NCBI RefSeq assembly: GCF_029589435.1
Contig: NZ_JARRAG010000001.1
Coordinates: forward strand, 796,808 to 860,807
Source: Paludisphaera mucosa
Lineage (GTDB): Bacteria; Planctomycetota; Planctomycetia; Isosphaerales; Isosphaeraceae
Direction of reading: 5' to 3'
Length of the DNA: 64,000 nucleotides
Position numbers and translations under genes: made by a program. The notes under the pieces are model-generated. The model did not search any database, had not been told where the DNA came from, and saw only the letters and a list, made by a program, of their open reading frames with translations. This document shows, piece by piece, positions 40,458-54,502 of this stretch. Each line of letters starts with the position of its first letter. The first letter of the stretch is position 1.

Positions 40458-40529
40458 GGGTCGGTAGCTGAGACGGTCTAGCGCCGCGCTGAAAACGCGG
40501 AGAGGTGGATTCGAGCGCCACCCGACCCA
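40458..40529 (+). tRNA. tRNA-Phe (GAA)
   Basis: Acceptor GGGTCGG pairs with CCGACCC. The anticodon loop CTGAAAA sits on a CCGCG/CGCGG stem. The T arm has one A-G mismatch next to the loop. CCA is not encoded. First tRNA of the array. Confidence 0.85.
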
Positions 40530-40605
40530 TCACGTCTCCCCGGCGACCGCCGGGGGCGCAGTCCCCGGCCCGCGCCGAGGGCTCGGCGCGACGTCGAACA
40601 GGAAC

Positions 40606-40677
40606 GGCCCGTTCGTCTATCGGACAGGATGCCGCCCTTTCAAGGCGGCGAGGAGGGTTCGACTCCCTCACGGGCCG
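40606..40677 (+). tRNA. tRNA-Glu (TTC)
   Basis: Acceptor GGCCCGT/ACGGGCC, anticodon loop CTTTCAA on CCGCC/GGCGG, T loop TTCGACT. All stems pair. CCA is not encoded. Confidence 0.92.
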
Positions 40678-40695
40678 CTCGGGAAGAAAGACCAC

Positions 40696-40768
40696 ACGAT
40701 CGGGGCGACTGGGGGCGCGGACGGTCTCCAAAACCGTCGTCTCGCGGGTTCGAATCCCGCCGGTCGTG
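40696..40768 (+). tRNA. tRNA-Trp (CCA)
   Basis: Acceptor ACGATCG/CGGTCGT with one G-T pair, anticodon loop CTCCAAA, T loop TTCGAAT on GCGGG/CCCGC. CCA tail is not encoded. Confidence 0.9.
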
Positions 40769-40780
40769 CTCTGCTGCAGA

Positions 40781-40854
40781 CGGGACGTGGGAAAGCCTGG
40801 GAATCCGCCTGCCTTGGGAGCAGGAGAGCGTCGGTTCGAATCCGACCGTCCCGA
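40781..40854 (+). tRNA. tRNA-Pro (TGG)
   Basis: Acceptor CGGGACG/CGTCCCG, anticodon loop CTTGGGA on CCTGC/GCAGG, T loop TTCGAAT on GTCGG/CCGAC. CCA is not encoded. Confidence 0.92.
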
Positions 40855-40935
40855 TTCCGCGATCATCGATAGTGACCTTAAAAGACCATTATGAGTCAGG
40901 AAGTGAAATATGCACGAAAACGACGAGTCCGACCA

Positions 40936-41007
40936 GGGGTCGTGGTGTAACGGCCGCACATCGGCCTTTTAAGCCGGGAGGTGGGGGTTCGACTCCCTCC
41001 GGCCCCA
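40936..41007 (+). tRNA. tRNA-Lys (TTT)
   Basis: Acceptor GGGGTCG/CGGCCCC, anticodon loop CTTTTAA on TCGGC/GCCGG, T loop TTCGACT. CCA is not encoded. Confidence 0.9.
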
Positions 41008-41025
41008 TGAGACGAATCGTGCAGG

Positions 41026-41096
41026 CGGCCCGCAGCTCCGGGGTGGAGCACCCGGCTGATAACCGGGAGGCGGAGGTTCGATTCCTCCCGGGCCGA
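41026..41096 (+). tRNA. tRNA-Ile (GAT)
   Basis: Acceptor CGGCCCG/CGGGCCG, D stem GCTC/GAGC, anticodon loop CTGATAA on CCCGG/CCGGG, T loop TTCGATT. Last tRNA before the protease-nuclease cassette. CCA is not encoded. Confidence 0.92.
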
Positions 41097-41439
41097 TCGG
41101 TCTTCGCCCGGGGGGGCGCGGAATCCGGATCGGACGTCCCGGGCCCGAGCGACGGGGCGGGGCGTCAGGTTTCAAGCTCGATCAACCGTTCGACCCCGCG
41201 ATCGATCCGAAGAAGGACTGATGAAAACCTCGGCAATCGGGGGAAACCGCGACAAGGACTCGCTCGAGAGCCGTATAAGTGGCATGGATCGTCATATCTG
41301 AGGTCTCGTCGAGTCTGCGAATACCTGGTGGGACGGGCGGAGAGCCTTCGCCGATCTCGACCGGGCTCGATCGACCTCCGGTGGACGAGAGTCGGTCCGT
41401 CGCCGCCCGGAAGCTCCCTCTCCCAGATCGAGGTTCGTC
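41097..41439. other. intergenic region upstream of the protease-nuclease gene
   Basis: 343 bases. It probably holds the promoter of the two-gene cassette. A GTATAAGT sequence near 41273 could serve as a -10 box but no matching -35 was found. No coding frame is convincing. Confidence 0.3.
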
Positions 41440-43680
41440 ATGGCCGCGCCGAAGAACGTCTACGCGTTCAGCTTGACCGAGGCCGTGGCCGCCGCGGACC
41501 GCTGGTCGAAGCGAGCCCATCAACATGAGAAATTCGAGCGGGCGGCTCGCAACAAGCAATACACCTCGCTCGACACCCCCGAGCGGTGTGCGGCGCGGGC
41601 GAACCGCCTGCTCGGCCGGCTGAAGCGCGCCGGATCGCGGCTGGCCGAGTCGATGGCGTCCGATTTCGACGAATCGACCGCCAGGCAGGTGGCCGCGGCC
41701 CGGGTCACCGCCCAGAACGTGAGCGACGCCCTGCTCGAACGCGTGATCGGGGGCACGCGGGATTTCCAGTTCGTCGAGTTCCTCGAACAGGCGACCTACG
41801 TCTGCAGGTCGGTCGGCCGCATCGTCACCAAGCTCGGCGGCGGGAGGATGGCCTACGGCACCGGCTTCATGGCCTCGCCCCGGTTGCTGATGACGAATCA
41901 TCACGTGCTCCCGTCCCGGGACGACGCGGCCCGCAGCGTGGTCGAGTTCGACTACCAGCGCGACCGCCTGGGCCGGGCCGTCGCGGTCCGGAGCCTGCGG
42001 ATCGACCCGGACGCGTTCTTCCTGAACGACGAGGACCTGGACTTCGCCCTGGTCGCGGTGGCGGCGGACGGCCGCGGCAGCCCGCTGGGCTATTACGGCT
42101 GGTGTCCGCTCATCAAGGAACTGGGCAAGATCGTCGCGGGGGAGCCCATCAACATCATCCAGCACCCGATGGGCGAGATGAAGCAGGTCGTCCTGCGCGA
42201 GAATCGGCTGATCGATTCCCTGGACGGCGCGGAGTCGTACCTGCACTACGAGGCCGACACCGAGCCGGGCTCGTCGGGCTCCCCGGTGTTCAACGACCAG
42301 TGGGAGGTCGTCGCCCTCCATCACAGCGGCGTGCCCAAGCGGAACACCAGGGGCGACCTGCTGGACGTCGACGGGAAGGTCTGGAAGGACGGGGACGATC
42401 CCTCGCGCCTCGAATGGGTGGCGAACGAGGGCGTCCGGGCGTCGAAGCTGGTCGAGTTCATCGCGAAGGCGACGGTCAAGCCCGCCGAGAGGCCGCTGCT
42501 GAAGGAGTTCCTGGAGGCCAGGCCGCCGGGCGAGGCCGACGGCCCCTCGACGCGTCGCGTCGAGGCCGGCCTTCGACCCGATCCCCGTCTCGAACCCGAA
42601 CCCGAACGCGAGGACGAGCCGATGCCCAGGCCCGAGGTCGAACGCGGCGGCGACTCCGTGACCTTCACGATCCCCCTTTACGTCACGGTGAGCGTCGGCG
42701 CCCCCGCGGCGCGCGGCGCCCTGAGCGTCGAGCCGGTCGAGCCGGCGTCCGGCTTCAAGGAACGGGTCGTCCCCGACCCCGACGATCTGGATTACCGCGA
42801 GCGACCCGGCTACGACGCCGGCTTCCTCGGCTTCGAGGCGCCGTTCCCCCGCCTGACCAACGCGACGCGTTCCAAGGCGTTCGCGCTCCCCGGCGAGCAA
42901 GGCGTCGATCGATACCTGCTCAAGTACCACCACTACAGCCTGATCTTCAACAAGGCGCGAAAGCTGGCCTTCGCGGCCGGCGTGAATTACGACCCGAACG
43001 CCAAGGTCCTGCACCGGAGGGACGTGGACGGGGACAAGTGGTATTACGACCCGCGGGTGACGCCCGAGAAGGAGATCCAGGCCGGCGAGAGCCTCTACGC
43101 GGGGAACCCGCTGGATCGCGGGCATCTCGTGAGGCGGGCCGACGCGGGCTGGGGGGCGACGAAGCAGGAGGCCAAGCTGGCCAACGACGACACCTTCCAC
43201 TTCACGAATTGCTCGCCGCAGCACGAGATCACCAACCAGGGGAAGACGAGCGAGGCCCCGCCGGGCCTGAAGTTGTGGGGGAACCTCGAAGACCACGTCG
43301 CGGCCCAGGGCAAGAAGGACAAGCGGAAGCTCAGCATCTTCAACGGCCCGGTCTTCCGGCCCTCCGACCGGAAGTACCGCGGCGTTCTGCTCCCCCGCGA
43401 GTTCTGGAAGGCGGTGGTGTTCGCGGACGACGAGGGGCGTCCCGCCGCGACGGCCTTCATCCTGACGCAGGCCGAGCTGATCCAGGACCTGCAGGAAGAA
43501 TTCACGGTGGGGGAATACAAGGCCGTGCAGGTCCGCATCGCGGACCTGGAGGCGAGGACCGGCCTCGATTTCGGCCCCGCGTCCGGTTGGGACGTGTTGG
43601 AGCAGGAGGGCGCCGAGGAGCGCTTCACGGGCGACTCGGCCGCCGTCGTCCTGGAATCCCTCTCGGACGTCGTGTTGTGA
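41440..43680 (+). CDS. trypsin-like serine protease fused to DNA/RNA non-specific endonuclease
   Basis: 746 residues without a signal peptide, so probably cytoplasmic. Residues 1-110 are helical and unassigned. A trypsin-fold protease follows, with catalytic residues visible as His155 (MTNHHV), Asp201 (DLDFALV) and Ser281 (GSSGSPVF). A linker of low complexity around 355-400 leads to a C-terminal betabetaalpha-metal (NUC1) nuclease with the active-site DRGH at 559-562 and a following NDDTFHFTNCSPQHE segment with the metal-binding Asn. Both active sites look intact. The next gene starts 31 bases later. The pairing of protease and nuclease in one chain suggests a regulated effector, for example in phage defence or a toxin; that is inference. 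Confidence 0.85.
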   Translation: MAAPKNVYAFSLTEAVAAADRWSKRAHQHEKFERAARNKQYTSLDTPERCAARANRLLGRLKRAGSRLAESMASDFDESTARQVAAARVTAQNVSDALLERVIGGTRDFQFVEFLEQATYVCRSVGRIVTKLGGGRMAYGTGFMASPRLLMTNHHVLPSRDDAARSVVEFDYQRDRLGRAVAVRSLRIDPDAFFLNDEDLDFALVAVAADGRGSPLGYYGWCPLIKELGKIVAGEPINIIQHPMGEMKQVVLRENRLIDSLDGAESYLHYEADTEPGSSGSPVFNDQWEVVALHHSGVPKRNTRGDLLDVDGKVWKDGDDPSRLEWVANEGVRASKLVEFIAKATVKPAERPLLKEFLEARPPGEADGPSTRRVEAGLRPDPRLEPEPEREDEPMPRPEVERGGDSVTFTIPLYVTVSVGAPAARGALSVEPVEPASGFKERVVPDPDDLDYRERPGYDAGFLGFEAPFPRLTNATRSKAFALPGEQGVDRYLLKYHHYSLIFNKARKLAFAAGVNYDPNAKVLHRRDVDGDKWYYDPRVTPEKEIQAGESLYAGNPLDRGHLVRRADAGWGATKQEAKLANDDTFHFTNCSPQHEITNQGKTSEAPPGLKLWGNLEDHVAAQGKKDKRKLSIFNGPVFRPSDRKYRGVLLPREFWKAVVFADDEGRPAATAFILTQAELIQDLQEEFTVGEYKAVQVRIADLEARTGLDFGPASGWDVLEQEGAEERFTGDSAAVVLESLSDVVL

Positions 43681-43711
43681 CGCGAACGCGCGTCGGGGCG
43701 TCGGGACGGGG

Positions 43712-44545
43712 ATGGACCGGGGCCGCGTCATGCGGCGGGAGGCCGAGATGAAGCTGGCCGGCCGCGAGTACAAGACCATGATAGACCACGCCGCGTTCGT
43801 CGACCCGCGAGCGGCGGCCGACCTCTTCTGGACCGAGTTGGAGGAGGCCGCGGAGACGCCCACGCGCCGGCTGAAGGGCCGATTCGACCGGGAGGAGGGC
43901 CGCCGCGTCAGCTTCCTCGACACGCCCGACCTCTCCCTGCGCCGCAGCAACCTCGTCCTCCGCCGTCGGGCCGGCGAGGGAGGCGACCAGTACACCCTCA
44001 AGTGCCGCTCCGAAGACCGCTACGAGGCCGCGGGGACCGACGTCGACGCGGCTCCGGGCCTGGACGGCAAGTCGAAGCTCGAAGAAGACATCGCGCCCCC
44101 GTTCCTCTGTCGATTCTCCCATTCCTGCAACGCGAAGCTCCCGGGCGATCCGCCCGCGACCCTGGGAGACGCGGCGGCGCTCTTCCCCCTCCTCGGGCGC
44201 CTCGTCCACGACGGCCGCCCGCTCGCCCTCGACCTGCCGCTGCGGACCGTCCACGACGTCGTCGCGTCCGAGCGCGTCCTGACCGGGGCGAAGCTCGTCT
44301 TCGACCCCCCCGGCGAGCCCGCCGTGGAGGCGTCCGCGGCGATGATCGTCTGGTCGAACCCCAAGACGGCGAGGATCCTGCTCGCCGAATTCTCCTTCCG
44401 CATCAAGGCCGACGACGAGCGTTTCGGCTTCGCGGTCGCGGCCTCCGCCCGCTCGTTCTTCGAAGTCGTCCTGGGCCACGACTGGGCCCGGCCGGATTCC
44501 CGCTCCAAGACCGAGTACGTCTTCCGCGACACTCGCGGCGACTGA
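43712..44545 (+). CDS. CYTH/VTC-like triphosphate-tunnel domain protein
   Basis: 277 residues. The pattern REYKTMID (acidic-basic strand), then FLDTPDLSLRRSNLVLRRRAG and QYTLKCRSEDRY, matches the alternating charged beta strands of the CYTH/VTC tunnel fold that binds polyphosphate or triphosphate. A late FSFRIK and KTEYVF add further strand charges. It is co-oriented with the protease-nuclease gene and only 31 bases away, so the two are likely one operon. ATGs at 43730 and 43748 are alternative starts; the latter removes a short Arg-rich leader. The catalytic activity is unknown. Confidence 0.62.
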   Translation: MDRGRVMRREAEMKLAGREYKTMIDHAAFVDPRAAADLFWTELEEAAETPTRRLKGRFDREEGRRVSFLDTPDLSLRRSNLVLRRRAGEGGDQYTLKCRSEDRYEAAGTDVDAAPGLDGKSKLEEDIAPPFLCRFSHSCNAKLPGDPPATLGDAAALFPLLGRLVHDGRPLALDLPLRTVHDVVASERVLTGAKLVFDPPGEPAVEASAAMIVWSNPKTARILLAEFSFRIKADDERFGFAVAASARSFFEVVLGHDWARPDSRSKTEYVFRDTRGD

Positions 44546-44899
44546 GGACGAGGGGCGAGGACCCCGCGCGTCGCGTCGATCCCGACTCGCTCCCCGTCCA
44601 TCACTTCCGGCCCCCCACCTCGCACCCGCACCATCCGGCCCGGGGCGGGTCGACCGGCCGCGCGTTTGGGGCGACCTCCGTCCCCGTCGGCCCGATCGAC
44701 GCCCGATGCGGCCGCTCCTCGCGATCGCGGCCGACGGGACGCCACCTCTCTTTCGGCGAGATCCGCGATTTCGCGCGAACACGGCGCGGGGGGACGGCGT
44801 CTGACTTGGCGTGCGGCGAACGAGTGAATGAAGTGAAAAGGCGAATGGATGTGGATGCAGGATGCAGGCGGCGCCCGCGCCGCGATCGAGGCCCTATCC
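44546..44899. other. intergenic region before the second tRNA block
   Basis: 354 bases after the CYTH/VTC-like gene. Open frames here are Arg/Pro-rich and out of keeping with real genes. It may carry a promoter for the second tRNA block, but no clear boxes were found. Confidence 0.35.
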
Positions 44900-44972
44900 G
44901 GGACCAAGGTGTTAGCGGCAGCACACCTGGCTCTTAACCAGGCGGGTGAGGGTTCGAGCCCCTCTGGTCCCA
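44900..44972 (+). tRNA. tRNA-Lys (CTT)
   Basis: Acceptor GGGACCA/TGGTCCC, anticodon loop CTCTTAA on CCTGG/CCAGG, T loop TTCGAGC. First tRNA of the second block. CCA is not encoded. Confidence 0.93.
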
Positions 44973-44984
44973 TCGCGAAACGAC

Positions 44985-45057
44985 GCGCCAGGGGGTCCGT
45001 AAGGACGGACGCCGCCCTCGTAAGGCGGAGGAGCGGGTTCGATCCCCGCCCGGCGCT
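44985..45057 (+). tRNA. tRNA-Thr (CGT)
   Basis: Acceptor GCGCCAG/CCGGCGC with one A-C mismatch at pair 6-67, anticodon loop CTCGTAA on CCGCC/GGCGG, T loop TTCGATC. CCA is not encoded. Confidence 0.85.
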
Positions 45058-45113
45058 CTGGGCTCCTTGACAATTCGGTTTTGAATTGAGTTATGAAAAC
45101 ATGAAATATCGAC

Positions 45114-45184
45114 GCGCCCATGATGTAACGGAAGCCTACCGCCTCGCCATGGCGGACGCGCGGGTTCGACTCCCGCTGGGCGCT
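45114..45184 (+). tRNA. tRNA-Gly (GCC) with C33
   Basis: Acceptor GCGCCCA/TGGGCGC and T arm are canonical. The anticodon loop is TCGCCAT, so position 33 is C instead of the nearly invariant U, and 32/38 is a T-T pair. CCA is not encoded. Confidence 0.8.
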
Positions 45185-45219
45185 TGCCGTCGGCCTCTTG
45201 CGACGGCCTCTCGATCGGA

Positions 45220-45300
45220 TCCAGGGTGGCGAAACGGCAGCCGCACTCCACTGTTAATGGAGCGCCCTCGGGCGTGGGGGTTCGACTCCCTCCCCTGGAG
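45220..45300 (+). tRNA. tRNA-Asn (GTT) with a long variable arm
   Basis: 81 bases. Acceptor TCCAGGG/CCCTGGA with discriminator G, anticodon loop CTGTTAA on CTCCA/TGGAG (anticodon 45253-45255). Between the anticodon and T stems lie 13 bases, 45263-45275, that form a 4-bp hairpin CGCC/GGCG with loop CTCG. A class II arm is not expected for Asn. Confidence 0.82.
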
Positions 45301-45309
45301 CTTGAGGAC

Positions 45310-45393
45310 GGGAGGGCCAGCCGATCGGCGACGGCGCCCGATTCGAGATCGGGTGAGCGATGAGCCCTGGGGGTTCGAATCGCTCCCCTTCCG
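45310..45393 (+). tRNA. tRNA-Ser (CGA)
   Basis: 84 bases with a long variable arm, as normal for Ser. Acceptor GGGAGGG/CCCTTCC, anticodon loop TTCGAGA on CCCGA/TCGGG. One G-G mismatch in the T stem. CCA is not encoded. Confidence 0.85.
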
Positions 45394-45433
45394 CTGGAGG
45401 AGTTTGATGAATTTCGACTCCGACGCCTCTCAC

Positions 45434-45504
45434 GCGTCCCTGGCCGAGCGGTCAGGCGCCGGCCTTCCAAGCCGGCCAGGCGGGTTCGACTCCCGCGGGG
45501 CGCT
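45434..45504 (+). tRNA. tRNA-Gly (TCC)
   Basis: Acceptor GCGTCCC/GGGGCGC with one T-G pair, anticodon loop CTTCCAA on CCGGC/GCCGG, T loop TTCGACT. CCA is not encoded. It ends one base before the next tRNA. Confidence 0.9.
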
Positions 45505-45505
45505 C

Positions 45506-45576
45506 TCGGGAATCGGCTAACGGCAGGCCCCCCGACTTTGAATCGGGCGATGGAGGTTCGAGTCCTCCTTCCCGAA
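45506..45576 (+). tRNA. tRNA-Gln (TTG)
   Basis: Acceptor TCGGGAA/TTCCCGA, anticodon loop CTTTGAA on CCCGA/TCGGG, T loop TTCGAGT. CCA is not encoded. Confidence 0.92.
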
Positions 45577-45599
45577 TGGCGGGGGGCGCGCCGACCGAC

Positions 45600-45673
45600 T
45601 CCGGGGCGGTCGCGGCTGGTCGCGACGCCAGGCTCTGGACCTGGAGGCGCTGGTTCGATTCCAGCCCCCGGAA
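45600..45673 (+). tRNA. tRNA-Gln (CTG)
   Basis: Acceptor TCCGGGG/CCCCGGA, anticodon loop CTCTGGA on CCAGG/CCTGG, T loop TTCGATT on GCTGG/CCAGC. CCA is not encoded. Confidence 0.92.
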
Positions 45674-45687
45674 TTCGACGCGATCGC

Positions 45688-45761
45688 GGCTCGGTAGGCA
45701 ACCGGCAGACCACTCTCGCTCAGACCGAGAGATGCTGAGGGTTCGAATCCCTCTCGAGCCA
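45688..45761 (+). tRNA. tRNA with Leu anticodon (CAG) and short variable loop
   Basis: Acceptor GGCTCGG/TCGAGCC, anticodon loop CTCAGAC on TCTCG/CGAGA (anticodon 45721-45723), T loop TTCGAAT. The variable region is only 6 bases, whereas bacterial Leu tRNAs carry a long arm. Position 37 is A and the D stem is irregular. Confidence 0.75.
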
Positions 45762-45800
45762 TCCCGGGGCGACGCCCGCGCGTCGCGACGGGGACGACAC

Positions 45801-45875
45801 GCCCTCGTGGAGCAGTCCGGAGTGCTCGCCGCCTTGTCAAGGCGGAGGCCGCGGGTTCGAATCCCGCCGGGGGCG
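45801..45875 (+). tRNA. tRNA-Asp (GTC)
   Basis: Acceptor GCCCTCG/CGGGGGC, anticodon loop TTGTCAA on CCGCC/GGCGG, T loop TTCGAAT on GCGGG/CCCGC, discriminator G. CCA is not encoded. Confidence 0.92.
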
Positions 45876-45905
45876 CTCGGATGGAGAGTCGGTGAGTTGT
45901 TCATC

Positions 45906-45975
45906 CCCAGGCGCGGCCGGCGCCCGGCCGTCCCTCATGAGGACGGCTCCCCCGGATCGACACCGGGGCCTGGGA
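45906..45975 (+). tRNA. aberrant tRNA-like element with CAT anticodon
   Basis: Acceptor CCCAGGC/GCCTGGG pairs perfectly, as do the anticodon stem CGTCC/GGACG around loop CTCATGA and the T stem CCCGG/CCGGG. The T loop is ATCGACA instead of TTCRANY, position 8 is not T, and only 16 bases lie between acceptor and anticodon stems, so no normal D arm can form. It sits in line within the array. It could be a degenerate or specialised Met/Ile tRNA, or a decayed copy. Confidence 0.5.
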
Positions 45976-46013
45976 TTCGGCGGGTCCGGCCCGGCCGGTC
46001 GGCGAGGTCCGAT

Positions 46014-46087
46014 GGCATGGTACGCAAACCGGCAAAGCGGCCAGGTCGAGAGCCTGGTGCCTGTGGGTTCGACTCCCACCCGTGCCA
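46014..46087 (+). tRNA. tRNA with Leu anticodon (GAG), short variable loop and C33
   Basis: Acceptor GGCATGG/CCGTGCC, anticodon stem CCAGG/CCTGG with loop TCGAGAG (anticodon 46048-46050), T loop TTCGACT. The variable region is 5 bases, position 33 is C and position 37 is A. All three depart from normal bacterial Leu tRNA. Confidence 0.72.
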
Positions 46088-46108
46088 CTGCGAGAGCGTG
46101 CGAGCGTC

Positions 46109-46180
46109 CGTCCCGTGGTCCAGCGGCTACGACTCCTGTCTTACAAACAGGGAAGGGGGGTTCGATTCCCTCCGGGACGA
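46109..46180 (+). tRNA. tRNA-Val (TAC)
   Basis: Acceptor CGTCCCG/CGGGACG, anticodon loop CTTACAA on CCTGT/ACAGG, T loop TTCGATT. CCA is not encoded. Confidence 0.92.
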
Positions 46181-46214
46181 CTGGGGAGGCCGAGGGCCTC
46201 TCCGAAAGGAGGAT

Positions 46215-46285
46215 GGGCGGCTGGTCCAACGGGAAGACGCCTGGTTTGCACCCAGGAGATCGGGGTTCGATTCCCCGGCCGGTCC
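46215..46285 (+). tRNA. tRNA-Ala (TGC) with altered 3-70 pair
   Basis: Anticodon loop TTTGCAC on CCTGG/CCAGG and T arm are normal. The acceptor GGGCGGC/GCCGGTC has a G-T pair at 2-71 and a G-G mismatch at 3-70, where Ala tRNAs carry the G3-U70 identity pair. CCA is not encoded. Confidence 0.8.
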
Positions 46286-46308
46286 ACTCGGATTGTCGCG
46301 GTCACGAC

Positions 46309-46396
46309 GGAAGGCAGCCGGATACGGTTGGCCGGGCCTCCTTGCTAAGGAGTGCGCCCTCTTCGGGGCGTGAGGGTTCGAATCCCTCGCCTTCCG
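46309..46396 (+). tRNA. tRNA-Ser (GCT)
   Basis: 88 bases with a long variable arm. Acceptor GGAAGGC/GCCTTCC, anticodon loop TTGCTAA with one mismatched outer stem pair, T loop TTCGAAT. CCA is not encoded. Confidence 0.9.
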
Positions 46397-46413
46397 CCTC
46401 GCTCCACAACTTC

Positions 46414-46486
46414 GACCCGGTGGTGAAACGGACGATCACACCTCGCTTCTAACGGGGCGTTCCGGGTTCGAATCCCGGCCGGGCCG
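46414..46486 (+). tRNA. tRNA-Arg (TCT)
   Basis: Acceptor GACCCGG/CCGGGCC with an A-C mismatch at 2-71, anticodon loop CTTCTAA on CCTCG/CGGGG, T loop TTCGAAT on CCGGG/CCCGG. CCA is not encoded. Confidence 0.85.
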
Positions 46487-46506
46487 CTGGTTGCATCGAT
46501 CTCGAC

Positions 46507-46592
46507 GGAAGGGCCACCCGAACGGCGACGGGACCCGCCTGGAACGAGGGCGAGCCTCACCAGCCTTGCGGGTTCGACTCCCGCCCCTTCCG
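46507..46592 (+). tRNA. tRNA-Ser (GGA)
   Basis: 86 bases with a long variable arm. Acceptor GGAAGGG/CCCTTCC, anticodon loop CTGGAAC on CCCGC/GAGGG with one G-A mismatch, T loop TTCGACT. Last tRNA of the array. Confidence 0.87.
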
Positions 46593-47064
46593 CCTCGCCC
46601 ACCTGGTCGGAACGAGCCCTCGGAGTGTGACGAATTTCGCATGCGACCCTCCGAAGGTGAGCGCGACCGGATTGTGTGCCCATGTGTGTGGGCCGATCTC
46701 GATTCTGTATAGTGACTTACGTTGATCGCGGAAAAAGGGCAATGCACCAGGATCCTCTGGATTCGTCACTATTGGGGGGAGTCTGGCGGGGGTTTAGTGC
46801 CAGGTTTAGTGACGACGTCGACGCCGGTTGGGCACCAGTTTGCCTCCGCCGGAAGCTCCCTCCGATCTGTCACAGGCAGGAGCACCTTTCCAACTTGCGT
46901 ATCATCGCCAGCGTTATATGCTGTAGTCCGCCATTGGGAGAGCTCGCGGCGACGGCCCGCCCGCCCGCCGGATCTTTGCTCCTCGATCTCAGATCTCGGC
47001 ATAGGGGCGGCTGCCGTCGCCGTCGAGCTTAGGGTGCAGTAACTTCCGGGCCGGCCCACCCGGG
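46593..47064. other. intergenic region after the tRNA array
   Basis: 472 bases, clearly lower in GC than the nuo region. A small inverted repeat GCCCA/TGGGC around 46679-46694 could end the tRNA transcript. Open frames on both strands here have no recognisable protein character. Confidence 0.35.
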
Positions 47065-48425: not shown

Positions 48426-50807
48426 ATGAAGCCCACGTCGATCCCCACCCACTTCGCCCATACCCTCGAAGGCGAAGGCATGGAATGCTGGCAACCTTTG
48501 ATGGATCATCTCGAGCGGGTGGCAAAGCTAGTCGAGACGCACGCCACCGCCTTCGATTCCTCTGCTTGGGGGAAGCTAGCCGGCCACCTGCACGATCTCG
48601 GCAAGTACGCGGCCGACTTCCAGTCGTACCTCAGGAACTCTGCGGGCGACCCCCTCGTGATCGACGCGTCCGTTCTGGACGGTGTTCCGAAGCGTGTGGA
48701 CCACTCCACGGCCGGCGCCGTCCGCGTCCTGGAGCTGGCTCGAAATGTCGGTCGGATGGCAGGCGACGGCGAACTACGGGCGGTCGAGGCGGCTTTGGCG
48801 ATGGTCATCGCGGGCCACCACTCGGGGTTGCCGGCGAAGTCGATGTTCGAATCCAAGCGACTCACAGCGTGCGAGAAGCAGGCCCGCCTCGATGAGGCAC
48901 GTCTCGGAGGTCAGCCCGAGATCGATGCATTGCTCGCCCTGGAACTGCCCGAGGCGCCCGCGATGCTCGGTCGTGAGCCGGTCGGGGGGTGGCCCGATAC
49001 GCGCTTCAAGAAACGTGAGCTGAGCCTGCGGTGCGAACTGTGGACCCGCATGCTCTTCTCGGCCTTGATCGACGCCGATCGTCTGGACACCGAGCGTTTC
49101 ATGAACCCCGGGCGCGCCCAGGCTCGAGTGGCGTCGATGGCAAGGGACGGTATCCTGGGGATGCTGAGCGGACGGGTTGATAGGTACCTGGAATATGTGG
49201 CTCAGACGGCGCGGGCTCGGGCGGCCCAGCCTCCTGAGGAGGCGTGTCCCCGCGCCGAGTCTGTCCTACGGCTGCGGGCCGATGTGCTGGCCGCCTGCCT
49301 CCGCGCGGCGGAAAGGCACGCGGGGCGACATTCGCTGACCGTCCCGACCGGCGGGGGCAAGACCTTGGCGGCCTTGGCCTTCGCCCTGCGGCACGCGATC
49401 CGCCGGAAGCTGCGACGAGTGATCGTCGTCATCCCCTTCACGAGCATCATCGATCAGACGGCCGCCGTCTATCGCGATGCATTCGGCGAACTGGCCGGGG
49501 AAGCCTTGGTAGAGCACCACAGCAACCTCGACCCTTCGACCGAGACATACGAAAATCGCCTGGCCTCGGAGAACTGGGACGCCCCGGTGATCGTGACGAC
49601 CAGCGTCCAGTTCTTCGAGAGCCTCTTCTCGGCCCGCGGAACCGCCGCGCGCAAGCTGCACAACATCGCCCAGAGCATCGTCGTCTTCGACGAGGTCCAG
49701 GCGCTGCCGCACCACTTACGGACGCCGATCTTCGACGTCCTGAATCGCCTCATCGACGACTACGGCGTCTCGGCCTTGTTCTGCACGGCGACCCAGCCGG
49801 CACTGGACCTGGCCACGACGAATCGGCAGGAATTCCCGCACCTCCCCGACGTCCGCGAAGTCGTCGACGACGTACCGGCCGCCTTCGAAGCCGTCAAAGG
49901 ACGGGTCGTCGCGGACTTCACACGCGCCCTCGAGCCGACGTCGTGGGAGGACCTGGCCGTCGACGTGACGGCCGACGATCGCGTCCTGACGATCGTCCAG
50001 CGTCGGGATGATGCACGCGACCTGTGGCGACTAATGCCGGCGGGAACGTTCCACCTGTCGGCTTTGATGTGCCCGGCCCATCGCCGCCTTGTCCTGAAGG
50101 AGATCGCCGCCGCCCTGGCCGACCCGGGTCGAGCATGCCGGGTCGTCAGCACCACCCTCGTCGAAGCGGGCGTCGACCTAGACTTCCCGGTCGTCTACCG
50201 GGCCTTGGGCGGCGTAGACGCTCTGGCCCAGGCCGCCGGCCGCTGCAATCGGTCGGGGCTCTTGACCGACGATCAGGGGCGCGCCCGGCCGGGCCGGCTG
50301 CTCGTCTTCCAACCGTGCATAGATCCCCCCCCGGGCCTGAGGCTCGGGGCGGTCACGACCTCGAGTCTACTCAAGGAATCCGGCATCGACCTCTTCGATC
50401 CCTGTACCTATGAGCGTTACTTCCGTCGCTACTTCGGGAACGTCGATCCCGACTCCATGAACGTGATGCCTACTCGTATCGAACGCGACTTCCCCGAGAT
50501 AGAGGCGCGGTTTCGCATGATCGACGACCAAGACCAGGCGTCGGTGGTCGTCCCATACGGTGAGGCCATCGACAGGATCGAAGCGTACCGAGCCGATCCG
50601 AGCCGTTGGACGCTCCGCGCGCTGCAGCCCTTCATCGTCAATATCCCGAGGCGACGGCTCGACTCGCTCGCCGGTCAAGGCGTGATCGAGACGATCCACG
50701 GACAGGTCAAGTGGATCTCCCCGGCCGGGCCTAAGCAGTATCACGAGAGCCTCGGGCTCCTGGACGACGAGATCGCGGCCATTGAACCCGGCCATCTCAT
50801 CACTTAG
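48426..50807 (+). CDS. cas3: CRISPR-associated helicase/nuclease Cas3 (type I-C)
   Basis: 793 residues. N-terminal HD nuclease with HLHDLGKY (His56-Asp57), a VDHSTAG and an AGHHSG segment, then an SF2 helicase with Walker A VPTGGGKT at 306-313, DEVQ at 422-425 and motif III CTATQP near 453. A late VSTTLVEAGVDLDFP and QAAGRCNRSG are motifs V and VI. It unwinds and degrades the target DNA recruited by Cascade. HD and helicase in one chain is the usual I-C form. It is separated from the rest of the cas operon by 1.2 kb that includes a sigma-factor gene. Confidence 0.96.
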   Translation: MKPTSIPTHFAHTLEGEGMECWQPLMDHLERVAKLVETHATAFDSSAWGKLAGHLHDLGKYAADFQSYLRNSAGDPLVIDASVLDGVPKRVDHSTAGAVRVLELARNVGRMAGDGELRAVEAALAMVIAGHHSGLPAKSMFESKRLTACEKQARLDEARLGGQPEIDALLALELPEAPAMLGREPVGGWPDTRFKKRELSLRCELWTRMLFSALIDADRLDTERFMNPGRAQARVASMARDGILGMLSGRVDRYLEYVAQTARARAAQPPEEACPRAESVLRLRADVLAACLRAAERHAGRHSLTVPTGGGKTLAALAFALRHAIRRKLRRVIVVIPFTSIIDQTAAVYRDAFGELAGEALVEHHSNLDPSTETYENRLASENWDAPVIVTTSVQFFESLFSARGTAARKLHNIAQSIVVFDEVQALPHHLRTPIFDVLNRLIDDYGVSALFCTATQPALDLATTNRQEFPHLPDVREVVDDVPAAFEAVKGRVVADFTRALEPTSWEDLAVDVTADDRVLTIVQRRDDARDLWRLMPAGTFHLSALMCPAHRRLVLKEIAAALADPGRACRVVSTTLVEAGVDLDFPVVYRALGGVDALAQAAGRCNRSGLLTDDQGRARPGRLLVFQPCIDPPPGLRLGAVTTSSLLKESGIDLFDPCTYERYFRRYFGNVDPDSMNVMPTRIERDFPEIEARFRMIDDQDQASVVVPYGEAIDRIEAYRADPSRWTLRALQPFIVNIPRRRLDSLAGQGVIETIHGQVKWISPAGPKQYHESLGLLDDEIAAIEPGHLIT

Positions 50808-51294
50808 GAATCGTGAGCTTGCAGCGAGAGGTACTGTACATCGCTTCATGGCGAGATAAACTGGTAGCACGGCTGAATCGATCTATCCATGATCTGAAGC
50901 AGCCGAATTCAATCACGATCACGTGGAATCGGCCGATGCCAGAGCCTTCTTCCGATGAAGGGCGACACGAACTTCTAGGATGAGGCACCCCGGGCCAGAG
51001 TGTGGCCTCGTATTTTGGAGTGCCTTAACCTGTCGGGTCCAATCGGGTGGCTTCCGTTCATGACTTCTCGATTCTGGCCGCATGTCTGATATCCGTGCCA
51101 GGCGAAGCTAAAGTCGTCGGGCCTTTGCCATCGCCATAAAAGAAGCTCGTTCGGTTATTTGGAGAACCCATCGATGCCCGGATTTTGGACCCTCCAATCA
51201 CCTTCTATGTGAGTGGCGTAAGACATCGCAAAGACTCAGGTGTTGTTTAATGTGAGCGGCGCGGACGACGACGGAGTCCCCTGGAGTTCGATCG
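50808..51294. other. gap between cas3 and the sigma-factor gene
   Basis: 487 bases, visibly richer in A and T than the flanking genes. No frame has recognisable protein character. It probably carries the promoter for the sigma factor and perhaps for the downstream cas genes; no clear boxes were identified. Confidence 0.4.
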
Positions 51295-51924
51295 ATGGCG
51301 GCGGTACCACGAATCTCTGAAGCAGGGGCTATTGAGGGTGCGTCCCTTCGACCGGTCAAGGCTCTATTCGAGAGCAAGGAGACCCGGGAGATTCTTCAGG
51401 GGTACATCCGCTTCCTACTCCAAGGTTTCCGGCCGACTGGAAGTGGTGAGGCTGTCGAAGATCAAGCCAGCGAGGTGTTCCAGGAAGTCGCCCTGCGAGC
51501 CCTGACGAAAGAGTACGCCTACCGACCGAGCGGTAGCGGCTTGCCCTTGCTCCGAAAGGTATGCCGTCATCTCGTCTGCAATCAGCGTCGGAGTCGGCGA
51601 CAGCGGTCTCGACTTCATTGCGGAGACGGCCTTTTCGAGCAGGTGGCCTGGGCCGTTCCGGCCGCGTCGTCGGACGCTGTGCACTCGATGTGGGTCCACG
51701 TCGACCGTCTAAAGCCACGGCATCGCGACGTGATCCGGCTCCGCTTCGGCTGCGGTCTCGGCCCGGCCGCGATCGCTGTGGCGCTCGGCCTTCCCTCGGA
51801 GAAGTCGGCGAGGGACTTGACGTCTCGAGCATTGCACGAGCTGCGTACGATGCTCGACGCAACGCCCGCCTCGAGACGGTCGCGACGCATCGTCGACCTC
51901 GATTGTCCGCGTGTCGTGGGTTGA
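51295..51924 (+). CDS. ECF-like RNA polymerase sigma factor within the cas locus
   Basis: 209 residues. The first half has a region-2-like helical part (EDQASEVFQEVALRALTKEYAYRPSGSG and LPLLRKVCRHLVCNQRRSRR), and the second half a region-4 helix-turn-helix (VHVDRLKPRHRDVIRLRFGCGLGPAAIAVALGLPSEKSARDLTSRALHELR). This two-domain layout without region 1 or 3 is that of ECF sigma factors. It lies between cas3 and cas5c in the same orientation, 104 bases upstream of cas5c. No anti-sigma gene is adjacent. Control of the cas operon is a reasonable inference but is not shown by the sequence. Confidence 0.75.
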   Translation: MAAVPRISEAGAIEGASLRPVKALFESKETREILQGYIRFLLQGFRPTGSGEAVEDQASEVFQEVALRALTKEYAYRPSGSGLPLLRKVCRHLVCNQRRSRRQRSRLHCGDGLFEQVAWAVPAASSDAVHSMWVHVDRLKPRHRDVIRLRFGCGLGPAAIAVALGLPSEKSARDLTSRALHELRTMLDATPASRRSRRIVDLDCPRVVG

Positions 51925-52028
51925 AACCTATGCGAGTGGCGTTTCGTGCCACCCGTCGGGACGACTTCGGTCGACGGCCCGGCGGGGCGAACCCGCCTCG
52001 ACCTCCAGCCCTTCTCTAGAGGACCTAC

Positions 52029-52706
52029 ATGAACATGAAAAGGAGCGACGCGACCTACCGCGTCCGCGTCCGGGGAGAGTGGGCCTGCTTCACACGGCCC
52101 GAGCTCAGGACCGAACGGGTTACGTATCACGTCATGACCCCCTCCGCGGCTCGGGGGGCCGTCGAGGCCGTCCTGTGGAAGCCGGCGATCCGCTGGCGTG
52201 TGCATCGAATCGCCGTGTTGAGTCCGATCAAGTTCGCATCGGTGAAGCGCAACGAGGTCAAGCACGTCGTCCCCGTGAAGAACGCCCGCGCGATGATGCG
52301 GGGAGAGGACGTGGCCGACTACTTCGCCGACGACGACCGGGCCCAGCGCAACGCCCTGGTCCTCCGCGACGTGGATTACCACGTCGACGTTTCGTTTTCC
52401 ATGACCGACCGAGCGGGGCCGGGCGACAACCCGTTGAAGTTCGACGAGATGTTCCGCCGCCGCCTGGAGCGTGGCCAATACCACATGGCCCCGTACCTCG
52501 GCTGCCGGGAGTTCCCGGCGATCGTCGAGTCGGGCCGCGACGACGATCCCTCCCCGATCGCCGTCGACATGGACCTCGGCCGAATGCTGCTGGACGTCGA
52601 TTACGGCCGCCCCAACCGTCCCGTCTACTTCGACGCCCGGATGAAGCAGGGCGTCATCGAGGTCGAGCCCATCAAACGTCGCGAAGACGGTGCGGAGGTC
52701 GCATGA
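52029..52706 (+). CDS. cas5c: type I-C CRISPR-associated protein Cas5c (crRNA-processing)
   Basis: 225 residues, typical for the subtype. In type I-C Cas5 replaces Cas6 and cuts the repeat RNA at the 3' base of its hairpin. The RAMP fold starts at YRVRVRGEWACFTRPELRTERVTYHVMTPSAARG, which is the diagnostic region, and APYLGCREFPA is a further family motif. Its stop overlaps the cas8c start (ATGA-type), and it is first of the five Cascade and adaptation genes. Confidence 0.95.
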   Translation: MNMKRSDATYRVRVRGEWACFTRPELRTERVTYHVMTPSAARGAVEAVLWKPAIRWRVHRIAVLSPIKFASVKRNEVKHVVPVKNARAMMRGEDVADYFADDDRAQRNALVLRDVDYHVDVSFSMTDRAGPGDNPLKFDEMFRRRLERGQYHMAPYLGCREFPAIVESGRDDDPSPIAVDMDLGRMLLDVDYGRPNRPVYFDARMKQGVIEVEPIKRREDGAEVA

Positions 52707-54502
52707 TCCTCAAGGAATTGGCCGACCTCGCCCGCCGCGAAGGGCTTCTCGAAGATCCTGACTACGAGCCCAAGCCGGTGCGTTGGACCATCGATATCGG
52801 CCTCGGCGGCAAGTTTCTGGACGCTCCTGAAACCCAGGGGCCCATGGACGCGAAGGGCAAGACCCGTCCGAAAGTGTTCCAGGTGCCCCGGACCCGGCCG
52901 CGCACCAGCGGATCCGCCGCGAACTTCATGGTCGACAAGCCCGAGTACGTGCTGGGCTTCGACCCAGATGAGAACCCGAAGAAGCACGGCAAGCTCGCCG
53001 GGCATCGCTCGTTGTTCCGCGAGTACGTCGAGGAAGGTCTCGCCTTCGCATCCGAGGATCCCGGGATGTCGGCCCTCCTCTGCTTTCTCCGCGACGACGT
53101 CGCGGTCGGCCAGGCCATCGCCAAGCTGCGGGGACCTGCCGTCTCGAACGACCTGATCGCCTTCCGTTACATCGCCGGCGGGGAGAACAACCTGATTCAT
53201 CACCGCGACGCCGTGCGGACGGCCTGGAAGGCCATGAGGAACCCGTCCGAGCGGACGAACAAAAGCCTGCCCGCATGCCTCGTCTGCGGCTTGGCCGCGG
53301 CTCCGGTCGACGTCCATCCTCAGATCAAGCGCATCCCGGGAGGTACCACCTCGGGGATCGCCCTGGTTTCGGCCAACTCCTCGGCTTTCGACTCGCTCGG
53401 CCTGTCGATCACGGATGGAGCCCCGGTCTGCCGGCCCTGCTCGGAAGCTTACGGGACGGCGCTCAACCGCTTGTTCCACCCCGCCTACACCACGCCCAAA
53501 GGCGAGACGCTCTCCCGACGCACCTTCCGACTCTCGGACGACACGGCCGTCGTCTATTGGGCCTCGGGGGCGGATGAGCACAAGTTCGTGGACGAATTCG
53601 GCGACCTCGACTTCGTCGACCCGGCGAAGGCCGGGTCGCTGTTCGAGGCCGTGCTCAAGGGTGAAGGCGCCTTGCTGCGGGATGCCACGCCGTTCCACGC
53701 GCTCATAATCTCCGGCGGCCAGGGACGGGCCATCCTACGCAGCTACTTCCAATCCACCGTGGGAGACGTCGCCACGAGGCTCCGCGAGTATTTCGACGAC
53801 GTCGAGATCGTCCGCAGATTCGAGAACACTTCTCGATGGCCGGCCCTATCCTGGCTCGTCCGGTCCCTGGCCCAGCAGGGGAAATTTGAGAACGTGGACG
53901 CGGACCTCGCCCGCCGCGTCTTCCTGGCGATCTTGGATGGGAATCCCTTCCCGCCCACCGTCCTCGCCGCCGCGGTGCGTCGCATCCGGGCGGAGAGGGA
54001 GGACCCCAAAAGAGGGAAGCAGAAGCACTCGCGCGAGCGGCTCGCCCTCGTCCGCGCCACGCTGAACCGCCGGTATAGAAACGACGATCCGCGAATCAAG
54101 TCCCTGATCTCGAAAGAGGTGTCCGTCATGCTCGACCCGGAATGCAACAACAACGCTTACTGCCTGGGCCGACTGCTCGCCGTCCTGGAGAAGCTCCAGG
54201 GGGACGCAATCGGCACGTCGGGCGCGTCGATCGTCGATCGATTCTACGGCGCGGCCTCCGCCACGCCGGCGGTCGTCTTCGCCACCTTGCTCCGCAAGGC
54301 CCAGCATCACCAGGCCAAGCTCGCAGGCGCGTTCTACCCGAGGCTCATCCAGGAGATCCTGGACCTCCTGCCGGCCGAAGCCTTTCCGTCCACGCTGACG
54401 CTGGAGGAGCAGGGACTTTTCGCCCTGGGTTATTACCACGAGAAGGCCGACCTCTGGCGCTCGAAGCCGAAGCCGGAAGTCGTCGCCGCGACGACTGAGT
54501 GA
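52703..54502 (+). CDS. cas8c: type I-C Cascade large subunit Cas8c (Csd1)
   Basis: 599 residues from the ATG at 52703. Large subunit that recognises the PAM and stabilises the target loop. Csd1 features include MILKELADLARREGLL at the N-terminus, ACLVCG with a later CRPC (a Cys4 zinc-like site), a GTTSGIALVSANSSAFDSLG segment, and AYCLGRLLAVLEKLQ towards the C-terminus. Its stop overlaps a possible GTG start of cas7c. Confidence 0.95.
   Translation: MILKELADLARREGLLEDPDYEPKPVRWTIDIGLGGKFLDAPETQGPMDAKGKTRPKVFQVPRTRPRTSGSAANFMVDKPEYVLGFDPDENPKKHGKLAGHRSLFREYVEEGLAFASEDPGMSALLCFLRDDVAVGQAIAKLRGPAVSNDLIAFRYIAGGENNLIHHRDAVRTAWKAMRNPSERTNKSLPACLVCGLAAAPVDVHPQIKRIPGGTTSGIALVSANSSAFDSLGLSITDGAPVCRPCSEAYGTALNRLFHPAYTTPKGETLSRRTFRLSDDTAVVYWASGADEHKFVDEFGDLDFVDPAKAGSLFEAVLKGEGALLRDATPFHALIISGGQGRAILRSYFQSTVGDVATRLREYFDDVEIVRRFENTSRWPALSWLVRSLAQQGKFENVDADLARRVFLAILDGNPFPPTVLAAAVRRIRAEREDPKRGKQKHSRERLALVRATLNRRYRNDDPRIKSLISKEVSVMLDPECNNNAYCLGRLLAVLEKLQGDAIGTSGASIVDRFYGAASATPAVVFATLLRKAQHHQAKLAGAFYPRLIQEILDLLPAEAFPSTLTLEEQGLFALGYYHEKADLWRSKPKPEVVAATTE

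Follow-up and report, generated by a model that had tools for sequence, protein, structure and literature searches.

A long-arm tRNA-Asn with a tRNA-Leu-type core in a chromosomal tRNA array of Paludisphaera mucosa

The tRNA gene at positions 45220-45300 of the 64,000-nucleotide stretch of Paludisphaera mucosa DNA analyzed here (the window) is a chimera, in which the core of a tRNA-Leu is combined with the ends and the anticodon loop of a tRNA-Asn. Taken as a whole, it is best explained as a putative working chimeric tRNA-Asn, carried in a long-kept chromosomal array that duplicates host tRNAs, a reading that we regard as probable. The structure, the Leu-type core, the Asn acceptor and anticodon, the conservation, the array context, and the second host tRNA-Asn were computed directly. 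The gene is at odds with the textbook rule by which, in bacteria, only the tRNAs for Leu, Ser, Tyr, and Sec have long variable arms, and it amounts to a natural identity experiment, in which altered ends, with U1-A72 and G73, and an altered anticodon have turned a Leu core into an Asn tRNA. Arrays, phage tRNAs, and escape through the variable loop are known already; a long-arm tRNA-Asn built on a Leu core, and the fact that such tRNAs recur in viruses, appear to be new, as neither was found in the literature searched, and no description of a long-arm tRNA-Asn or of a short-arm tRNA-Leu in phages or arrays was found in the open-licence literature.

ARAGORN calls a tRNA-Asn(gtt) at 45220-45301, and the Rfam tRNA model (RF00005) matches 45220-45300 end to end (model positions 1-71), with 46.7 bits against a gathering score of 29. 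The molecule is made up of the following parts.

45220..45300, plus strand: long-arm tRNA-Asn(GUU), 81 nt without CCA, with Leu-type core and Asn acceptor ends and anticodon (ARAGORN, Rfam, body neighbours)
45220..45226, plus strand: 5' strand of the acceptor stem, UCCAGGG (U1, C2), paired with 45293-45299 and unchanged in seven copies
45229..45244, plus strand: D arm GCGAAACGGCAGCCGC, of tRNA-Leu type by comparison (host Leu taa, GCGGAACGGCAGACGC)
45246..45262, plus strand: anticodon arm, with loop CUGUUAA and anticodon GUU at 45253-45255 (comparison of seven copies)
45263..45275, plus strand: variable region CGCCCUCGGGCGU, 13 nt, a 4-bp hairpin and one unpaired U (RNA fold, seven-copy comparison)
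45276..45292, plus strand: T arm GGGGGUUCGACUCCCUC (Rfam, seven-copy comparison)
45293..45300, plus strand: 3' strand of the acceptor stem, CCCUGGA (G71, A72), and discriminator G73 (seven-copy comparison)

The TCC start, G73, and the CTGTTAA loop are all as described in an earlier reading of the letters alone (the sequence-only reading), and the 4-bp helix that it had placed in a 13-nt variable region proved real, both in the RNA fold and in the pairing across copies. Free folding gives four arms plus the hairpin CGCC/GGCG with a CUCG loop (minimum free energy -38.6 kcal/mol; z -1.84, with 6 of 200 shuffles folding equally well), slightly off the standard cloverleaf, with 6 bp in the acceptor, 5 bp in the D, and 6 bp in the T stem. 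When the standard 7, 3, 5, 4, and 5 pairs are scored over the seven full-length copies, 99.4% of the cells are paired. The acceptor and T stems comprise 7 + 5 pairs in 7/7 copies, and the acceptor, D-stem, and T-stem pairs are all kept in every one of them; the hairpin stem is paired in 27 of 28 cells, and its loop differs in sequence and in length. Among the seven copies, two pairs of the anticodon stem show compensatory changes, and the hairpin stem of the variable arm shows none.

The features of the gene are divided among several isotypes. From tRNA-Asn it has the anticodon GUU, G73, and U1-A72, and the short variable region is absent; from tRNA-Leu it has the class II core (D, variable, and T arms), with G73 in place of A73; and from tRNA-Ser it has the long arm and G73, with U1-A72 and C2-G71 in place of G1-C72 and G2-C71. 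The stem forms of allo-tRNAs and tRNA-Sec are 8/5, 9/3, and 8/4. A long variable arm is common to these tRNAs and the array Asn, which has ordinary acceptor and T stems of 7 and 5 bp, and their features (acceptor and T stems that together exceed 12 bp, or an 8/4 or 9/3 split) are absent at 45220-45300. The Rfam scan reports the best match per clan only and thus gives no reading on the tRNA-Sec model.

The core was assigned from a comparison of the D region, the variable region, and the T arm of distinct tRNAs, with the acceptor and the anticodon arm left out, a method that correctly placed 84 of 87 Leu tRNAs in leave-one-out on a sample. In a pool of 3,317 tRNAs, which leaves out the loci fetched for resemblance to the query, all 25 nearest core neighbours of the window copy are long-arm tRNA-Leu, as are 165 of the 175 neighbours of the seven copies together, the remaining 10 being 3 Ser, 3 Tyr, 2 Asn, and 2 His. 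With the resemblance-fetched loci included (3,387), 166 of 175 neighbours are Leu and the loci L673-L675 are the top three of the window copy. For the copy of one relative (G032) the best single core neighbour is a host Ser(cga). The 74 tRNAs of the own genome alone had given an ambiguous core (array Ser gct 73.0, host Leu tag 72.0), an ambiguity that was resolved because the pool was larger and the anticodon arm was removed.

The same affinity can be read in individual arms. The variable arms of Clostridioides difficile tRNA-Leu(UAG), CGCCAUUGGCGU, and of Kitasatospora tRNA-Leu(CAA), CGCCCUGACGGGCGU, are close to CGCCCUCGGGCGU of the window; the G028 copy has the variable arm CGCCUUUGGCGU, and the D arm of the G003 copy, UGGCGGAAUGGUAGACGCA, is close to that of host tRNA-Leu(CAA), UGGCGGAAUGGCAGACGCG. 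Bacterial tRNA-Leu (class II; e.g., UAG, CAA) thus shares with the array Asn the D arm, the variable-arm hairpin, and the T arm, whereas the array Asn has G73 rather than A73, the U1-A72 acceptor, and the Asn anticodon. The host tRNA-Asn(GUU) outside the array (G000:C1:1247711-1247783) shares with the array copy GUU in CUGUUAA, U1-A72, and G73, but has an ordinary short variable region and a core that comes 53rd when 74 genomic tRNAs are ordered by their likeness to the array copy. As the D, variable, and T arms are Leu-like and the ends and anticodon loop are those of Asn, the gene is a chimera and not an enlarged Asn tRNA. That a class I Asn tRNA simply received an insertion is ruled out, since the D arm and the T arm are also Leu-type. 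The sequence-only reading had considered a lineage-specific expansion: the lineage-specificity stands among cellular genomes (full-length copies in 7 of 45 genomes of the order, the long arm in 5 of 392 planctomycetes by one exact pattern), whereas the idea of a simple expansion does not, the whole core being Leu-type. In a phage collection, blastn with the 81 nt gave no match; in a plasmid collection 17 records matched, and 3 of 3 examined matches are tRNA-Leu.

Which amino acid the tRNA carries was approached through its acceptor. A profile of 15 acceptor positions, trained on viral tRNAs (160 short-arm Asn, 186 Ser, 283 Leu, and 94 Tyr, of which 147, 175, 248, and 75, respectively, were correct in leave-one-out), gives the window copy log-odds of +10.0 for Asn, -7.7 for Tyr, -8.2 for Leu, and -15.7 for Ser, and U1-A72 occurs in 126 of the 160 viral short-arm Asn and in 0 of the 186 viral Ser. 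As described in PMC9976931, bacterial Asn identity lies in the anticodon and G73, U1-A72 marks Asp-tRNA-Asn for amidation, a step that G1-C72 and U20a prevent, and, among the E. coli enzymes, LeuRS and TyrRS are blocked by G73 and SerRS by C2-G71; the same source describes a Leu core with G73 as serylated in some systems. The window tRNA has GUU, G73, U1-A72, and C2-G71, and no U20a by the numbering used here. The long arm had been thought capable of changing the charging synthetase to that for Leu, Ser, or Tyr and so of giving a recoding tRNA; the acceptor scores, the G73 and C2-G71 blocks known from E. coli, and U1-A72 all speak against this, and recoding by the 45220-45300 tRNA appears unlikely. 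A clean reassignment of AAC/AAU is impossible, because the ordinary host tRNA-Asn reads the same codons, and mixed decoding of AAC/AAU is at most what could occur.

In the host, no AsnRS model match lies above the cut-off (best asnS match 82 bits vs 342.6), the two genes matched by the asnS model being AspRS and LysRS, and gatB is present (484 bits). With no AsnRS over the cut-off and with AspRS and GatB present, Asn is therefore probably made on the tRNA, and from the same absence of AsnRS we infer that the AspRS is non-discriminating. We propose that such an AspRS would aspartylate the tRNA by way of the anticodon GUU and G73, that GatCAB would then amidate Asp to Asn by way of U1-A72, and that the tRNA would deliver Asn at AAC/AAU, in ordinary decoding. 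Across the arrays of relatives, U1-A72 in the array Asn tRNA shows no tie to the absence of AsnRS: the short-arm array Asn of G016, G020, G043, and G044 has A1-U72, yet no AsnRS lies over the cut-off in these genomes (99% complete for G020, 74-83% for the other three), and in G010 and G014 the array Asn has U1-A72 although AsnRS is present.

The gene belongs to a set of 23 tRNA genes found by ARAGORN in 6.1 kb (40458-46594), which covers 17 of the 20 amino acids, in a host genome of 8.2 Mb where a genome-wide search gave 73 tRNA matches. Its main components are these.

40458..41096, plus strand: first block, Phe, Glu, Trp, Pro, Lys, Ile (ARAGORN), in an order that resembles related arrays
41440..43680, plus strand: trypsin-like protease fused to a DNA/RNA non-specific endonuclease, between the tRNA blocks (Pfam PF13365, PF01223)
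44900..46594, plus strand: dense block of 17 tRNA genes in 1.7 kb, the 45220 gene being the fourth of the 17 (ARAGORN)
45688..45761, plus strand: array tRNA-Leu(CAG) with a short, 6-nt variable region and A73 (ARAGORN, arm comparison)
46014..46088, plus strand: array tRNA-Leu(GAG) with a short, 5-nt variable region and A73 (ARAGORN, arm comparison)

With 17 tRNAs in 1.7 kb and 23 in 6.1 kb, the set has the density and size of a tRNA array unit, for which at least 2 tRNAs per kb and at least 15 genes are asked (PMC6409571). Both of its Leu tRNAs are short-armed, and Leu is also short in related arrays. No sigma-70-type promoter was seen in the array region, in a scan that is weak for such genomes. 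Array units often, though not always, lie on mobile DNA such as phages or plasmids; for the window array, 10 nearby ORFs were compared with Pfam. The protease-endonuclease gene had no tblastn match in eight related array loci of about 20 kb each. Just downstream of the array, at 48426-54502, lie Cas3-like and Csd1 genes (Pfam), a locus that we take to resemble CRISPR-Cas type I-C; neither gene had a match in the eight related array loci. Within the dense block, ARAGORN reports a tRNA-Met(cat) of 70 nt at 45906-45975, with the T loop ATCGACA and without an Rfam match, which is doubtful or unusual.

The search for homologues among relatives that the sequence-only reading had suggested was run on 45 genomes of the order, with some match in 14 and a full-length one in seven (own included), at 86-100% identity. 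Carriers of the full-length gene are the own genome and G028, G029, and G032 of the same genus, and G001, G002, and G003 of a second genus, and all seven copies lie in arrays with a similar tRNA order. An antiporter-like gene (Proton_antipo_M) is found 1 to 7 kb from the window array and from five of the eight other array loci (~20 kb), so that in six of the seven carriers, the own genome included, the array stands beside this gene; it was not found in L655 (G003, a short contig) or in L653 and L657 (another genus, with short-arm Asn). The flank being common to related array loci, the array has probably long been settled in the chromosome in this clade, rather than having arrived recently. At the corresponding array place, eight other genomes of the order (G010, G014, G016, G020, G040, G042, G043, and G044) have a short-arm Asn. 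In G029 (L652, 2767-17103), about 14 kb of other DNA lies between the array tRNA-Pro and tRNA-Lys, and the array thus tolerates inserts at that place.

Beyond the order, one exact pattern run on 392 planctomycete genomes gave 16 matches in 15 genomes, of which six, in five genomes, are true long-arm Asn tRNAs and the other 10 are not; at each of the six confirmed genes the tRNA genes are clustered, numbering 5 to 19 per ~3 kb. A wider Asn pattern matched in 289 of the 392 genomes, and among the matches listed almost all are of short-arm length. With the long arm in 5 of 392 genomes by the exact pattern, it is excluded that the arm is a majority trait of planctomycete Asn tRNAs.

Long-arm Asn tRNAs recur in viruses. 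On viral contigs, the long-arm Asn pattern met a true one in 82 of the 120 matches listed, and at least 84 distinct sequences were found, so that the statement that bacterial long arms are limited to Leu, Ser, and Tyr has to be given up. By their ends, the 84 viral long-arm Asn among the matches listed comprise 63 with U1-A72/G73, 17 with G1-C72/G73, 3 with G1-C72/U73, and 1 with U1-A72/U73. By their cores, 85 long-arm Asn divide into 12 Leu-like, 37 Ser-like, 8 Tyr-like, and 28 undecided, a mixture that, read without a tree, suggests that the core swap occurred more than once. All 12 Leu-like ones have U1-A72/G73, and the 37 Ser-like ones include 18 with U1-A72/G73 and 16 with G1-C72/G73. These 16 (of the 85; e.g., L121, L138, L076, and L101 among L069-L188) would be better candidates for the misreading of Asn codons as Ser than the window gene; a single base change leads from the Ser anticodon GCU to GUU. 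Isotype calls made from the anticodon alone hide such chimeras in phage genomes.

The frequency of viral long-arm Asn depends on the sample. With an Asn pattern neutral to arm length, 10 of 66 Asn tRNAs in 80 listed viral loci are long-armed, against 0 of 82 in 107 further loci among 120 matches listed; in 306 listed viral loci picked out by their anticodons for Arg, Lys, and Pro, the figure is 1 of 52. The 10 of 66, the counts from the 306 loci, the viral counts by ends and by cores, and the core-pool counts were taken after stem and T-loop filters (stem filters only for the 10 of 66), and the 306-locus sample went from 1,836 raw calls to 1,552 distinct passing ones. In these 306 listed loci, 43 of 158 Leu tRNAs are short-armed, all 43 with A73, and the arm is long in 94 of 94 Ser and in 38 of 40 Tyr. 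That the arm is often lost in Leu and kept in Ser agrees with E. coli, where LeuRS is described as having no need of the variable arm and SerRS as needing it (PMC9976931).

A pattern that joins the Leu D arm to the Asn loop gave 16 loci, 11 on viral contigs and 5 on contigs from 84,980 genomes; three of the latter are copies of G003, G002, and G032 already counted, and the others belong to Devosia and Mesorhizobium MAGs. Aquisphaera insulae JC669, an Isosphaeraceae planctomycete, has a homologue. Fourteen of the 16 parse as U1-A72/G73, and L714 does likewise after a one-base shift of its start by eye. The Leu-cored Asn tRNA of Devosia (L708) has G1-C72/G73 and is the sole tRNA in its 8-kb locus, and a viral Asn tRNA with a Leu-type D arm and a 6-nt variable region (L716) may be an intermediate.

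Other fates of the tRNA have to be weighed against delivery of Asn. Were SerRS to charge it through the long arm and G73, it would be a missense tRNA inserting Ser at Asn codons, as might be expected of an enzyme that is described as relying mainly on the variable arm with G73; a tRNA-Leu can also be converted to Ser when its A73 is replaced by G73 (PMC9976931 for both), and a single base left unpaired at the foot of the arm, on its 3' side, points the same way. The acceptor, however, has U1-A72 and C2-G71, whereas bacterial Ser has G1-C72 and G2-C71 and C2-G71 acts as an anti-SerRS element in E. coli (both PMC9976931); viral Ser has G1-C72 in 165 of 186 and G2-C71 in 184 of 186, and the low Ser score of the window acceptor (-15.7) makes such missense insertion highly improbable. 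There is only a very slender chance that AspRS charges the tRNA and that the long arm or the D loop then bars GatCAB, leaving Asp at Asn codons: with no AsnRS over the cut-off in the host the first product would indeed be Asp-tRNA, and A1-U72 is seen in array Asn tRNAs of some relatives, but the window tRNA itself has U1-A72 and, by the numbering used here, is free of the anti-amidation U20a. The gene might also be a relic, an old tRNA gene from a phage or plasmid whose product is neither made nor used any longer, given its redundancy with the host Asn tRNA, the lack of a promoter-like site in the weak scan of the array region, and the protease-endonuclease gene between the tRNA blocks. This is improbable in view of the seven copies, which keep all acceptor, D-stem, and T-stem pairs and have two compensatory pairs in the anticodon stem, and of the flank common to five of the eight other array loci.

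For a working chimeric tRNA-Asn, the question of purpose is separate. The array may be a spare translation set whose shapes differ from those of the housekeeping tRNAs, Asn gaining an arm and Leu losing one, in such a way that enzymes or stresses that destroy ordinary tRNAs would spare some array tRNAs. The literature offers precedents for a spare or escape set: the trn array of Anabaena is described as silent, induced by translational stress, and favourable to survival (PMC10272220), and the tRNA-Tyr of phage T5 is reported to withstand retron-Eco7 by way of its variable loop (PMC13096335). Like the mycobacterial and phage arrays and the Anabaena trn operon, the window array is a dense, redundant tRNA set; it is chromosomal, with a flank common across two genera, unlike those systems. 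M. avium arrays are reported to bear an HNH endonuclease gene (PMC12803027), and, with endonuclease genes in or beside mycobacterial arrays, the window array has its protease-endonuclease between the blocks. In the M. avium pS2b array a Leu tRNA is short-armed (taa, V=6), as in the window array, but Asn is of the ordinary short-arm kind, which counts against the idea of a spare set of altered shapes. T5 tRNA-Tyr and the window Asn both have a variable-region difference in a redundant tRNA, whereas T5 tRNA-Tyr keeps the class of its isotype and the window Asn switches class, with no nuclease known for it. Septu is described as cutting the tRNA-Tyr variable loop, and the tRNA-Tyr of T6 is also cut, so that a phage variable loop is not always protective (PMC13096335). 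The best fit is a spare Asn tRNA that diverges in structure and may for tRNA-cutting enzymes be harder to recognize, and, by these analogies, the chances that the array as a whole serves as a spare set are about evenly balanced.

More tentatively, and with a probability that we place well below even, the class switching could be an adaptive disguise, in which an arm is traded where the charging enzyme does not need it (Leu loses its arm, Asn takes a Leu core) and translation is kept up under tRNA-cutting defences or toxins, the array being in this lineage a resident, vertically kept spare kit; if so, the same class switching would operate in chromosomal and viral tRNA arrays. A serious rival to the spare-set purpose, and to the purpose only, since it leaves Asn charging untouched, is plain drift, in which redundant array tRNAs wander in shape and the Leu core brings no advantage. 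Drift is likewise possible rather than likely: the diversity of viral long-arm Asn bodies (12 Leu-like, 37 Ser-like, 8 Tyr-like, and 28 undecided of 85) and the frequent loss of Leu arms (43 of 158 in the listed viral loci) are what it would produce, but the form is stable over two genera of the order with little change, and Ser keeps its arm (94 of 94 long), which implies that shape is constrained where the synthetase needs it. The tolerance of AspRS and GatCAB for a long arm, and the change of class in array tRNAs as an escape from tRNA-cutting defences, are made testable by the window gene.

Unusual tRNA genes were also seen elsewhere in the data. The host has two mini-clusters of three tRNAs each, L036 (G000:C2:352770-353030) and L037 (G000:C2:2575502-2575810), which are near-copies of one another and contain a Ser(cga), a Ser-like gene, and a long-arm Tyr-like gene, the last with the anticodon GTA in one copy and CTA (amber; Pyl according to ARAGORN) in the other. 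In the 306 listed viral loci, 13 of 73 Ile tRNAs are tRNA-Ile(UAU) with variable regions of 17-25 nt (L351, L425, L477, L531, L533, L554, L576, L580, L586, L607, and others), which contain AGAT in 12 of the 13 cases, in seven of them as CAGATTA.
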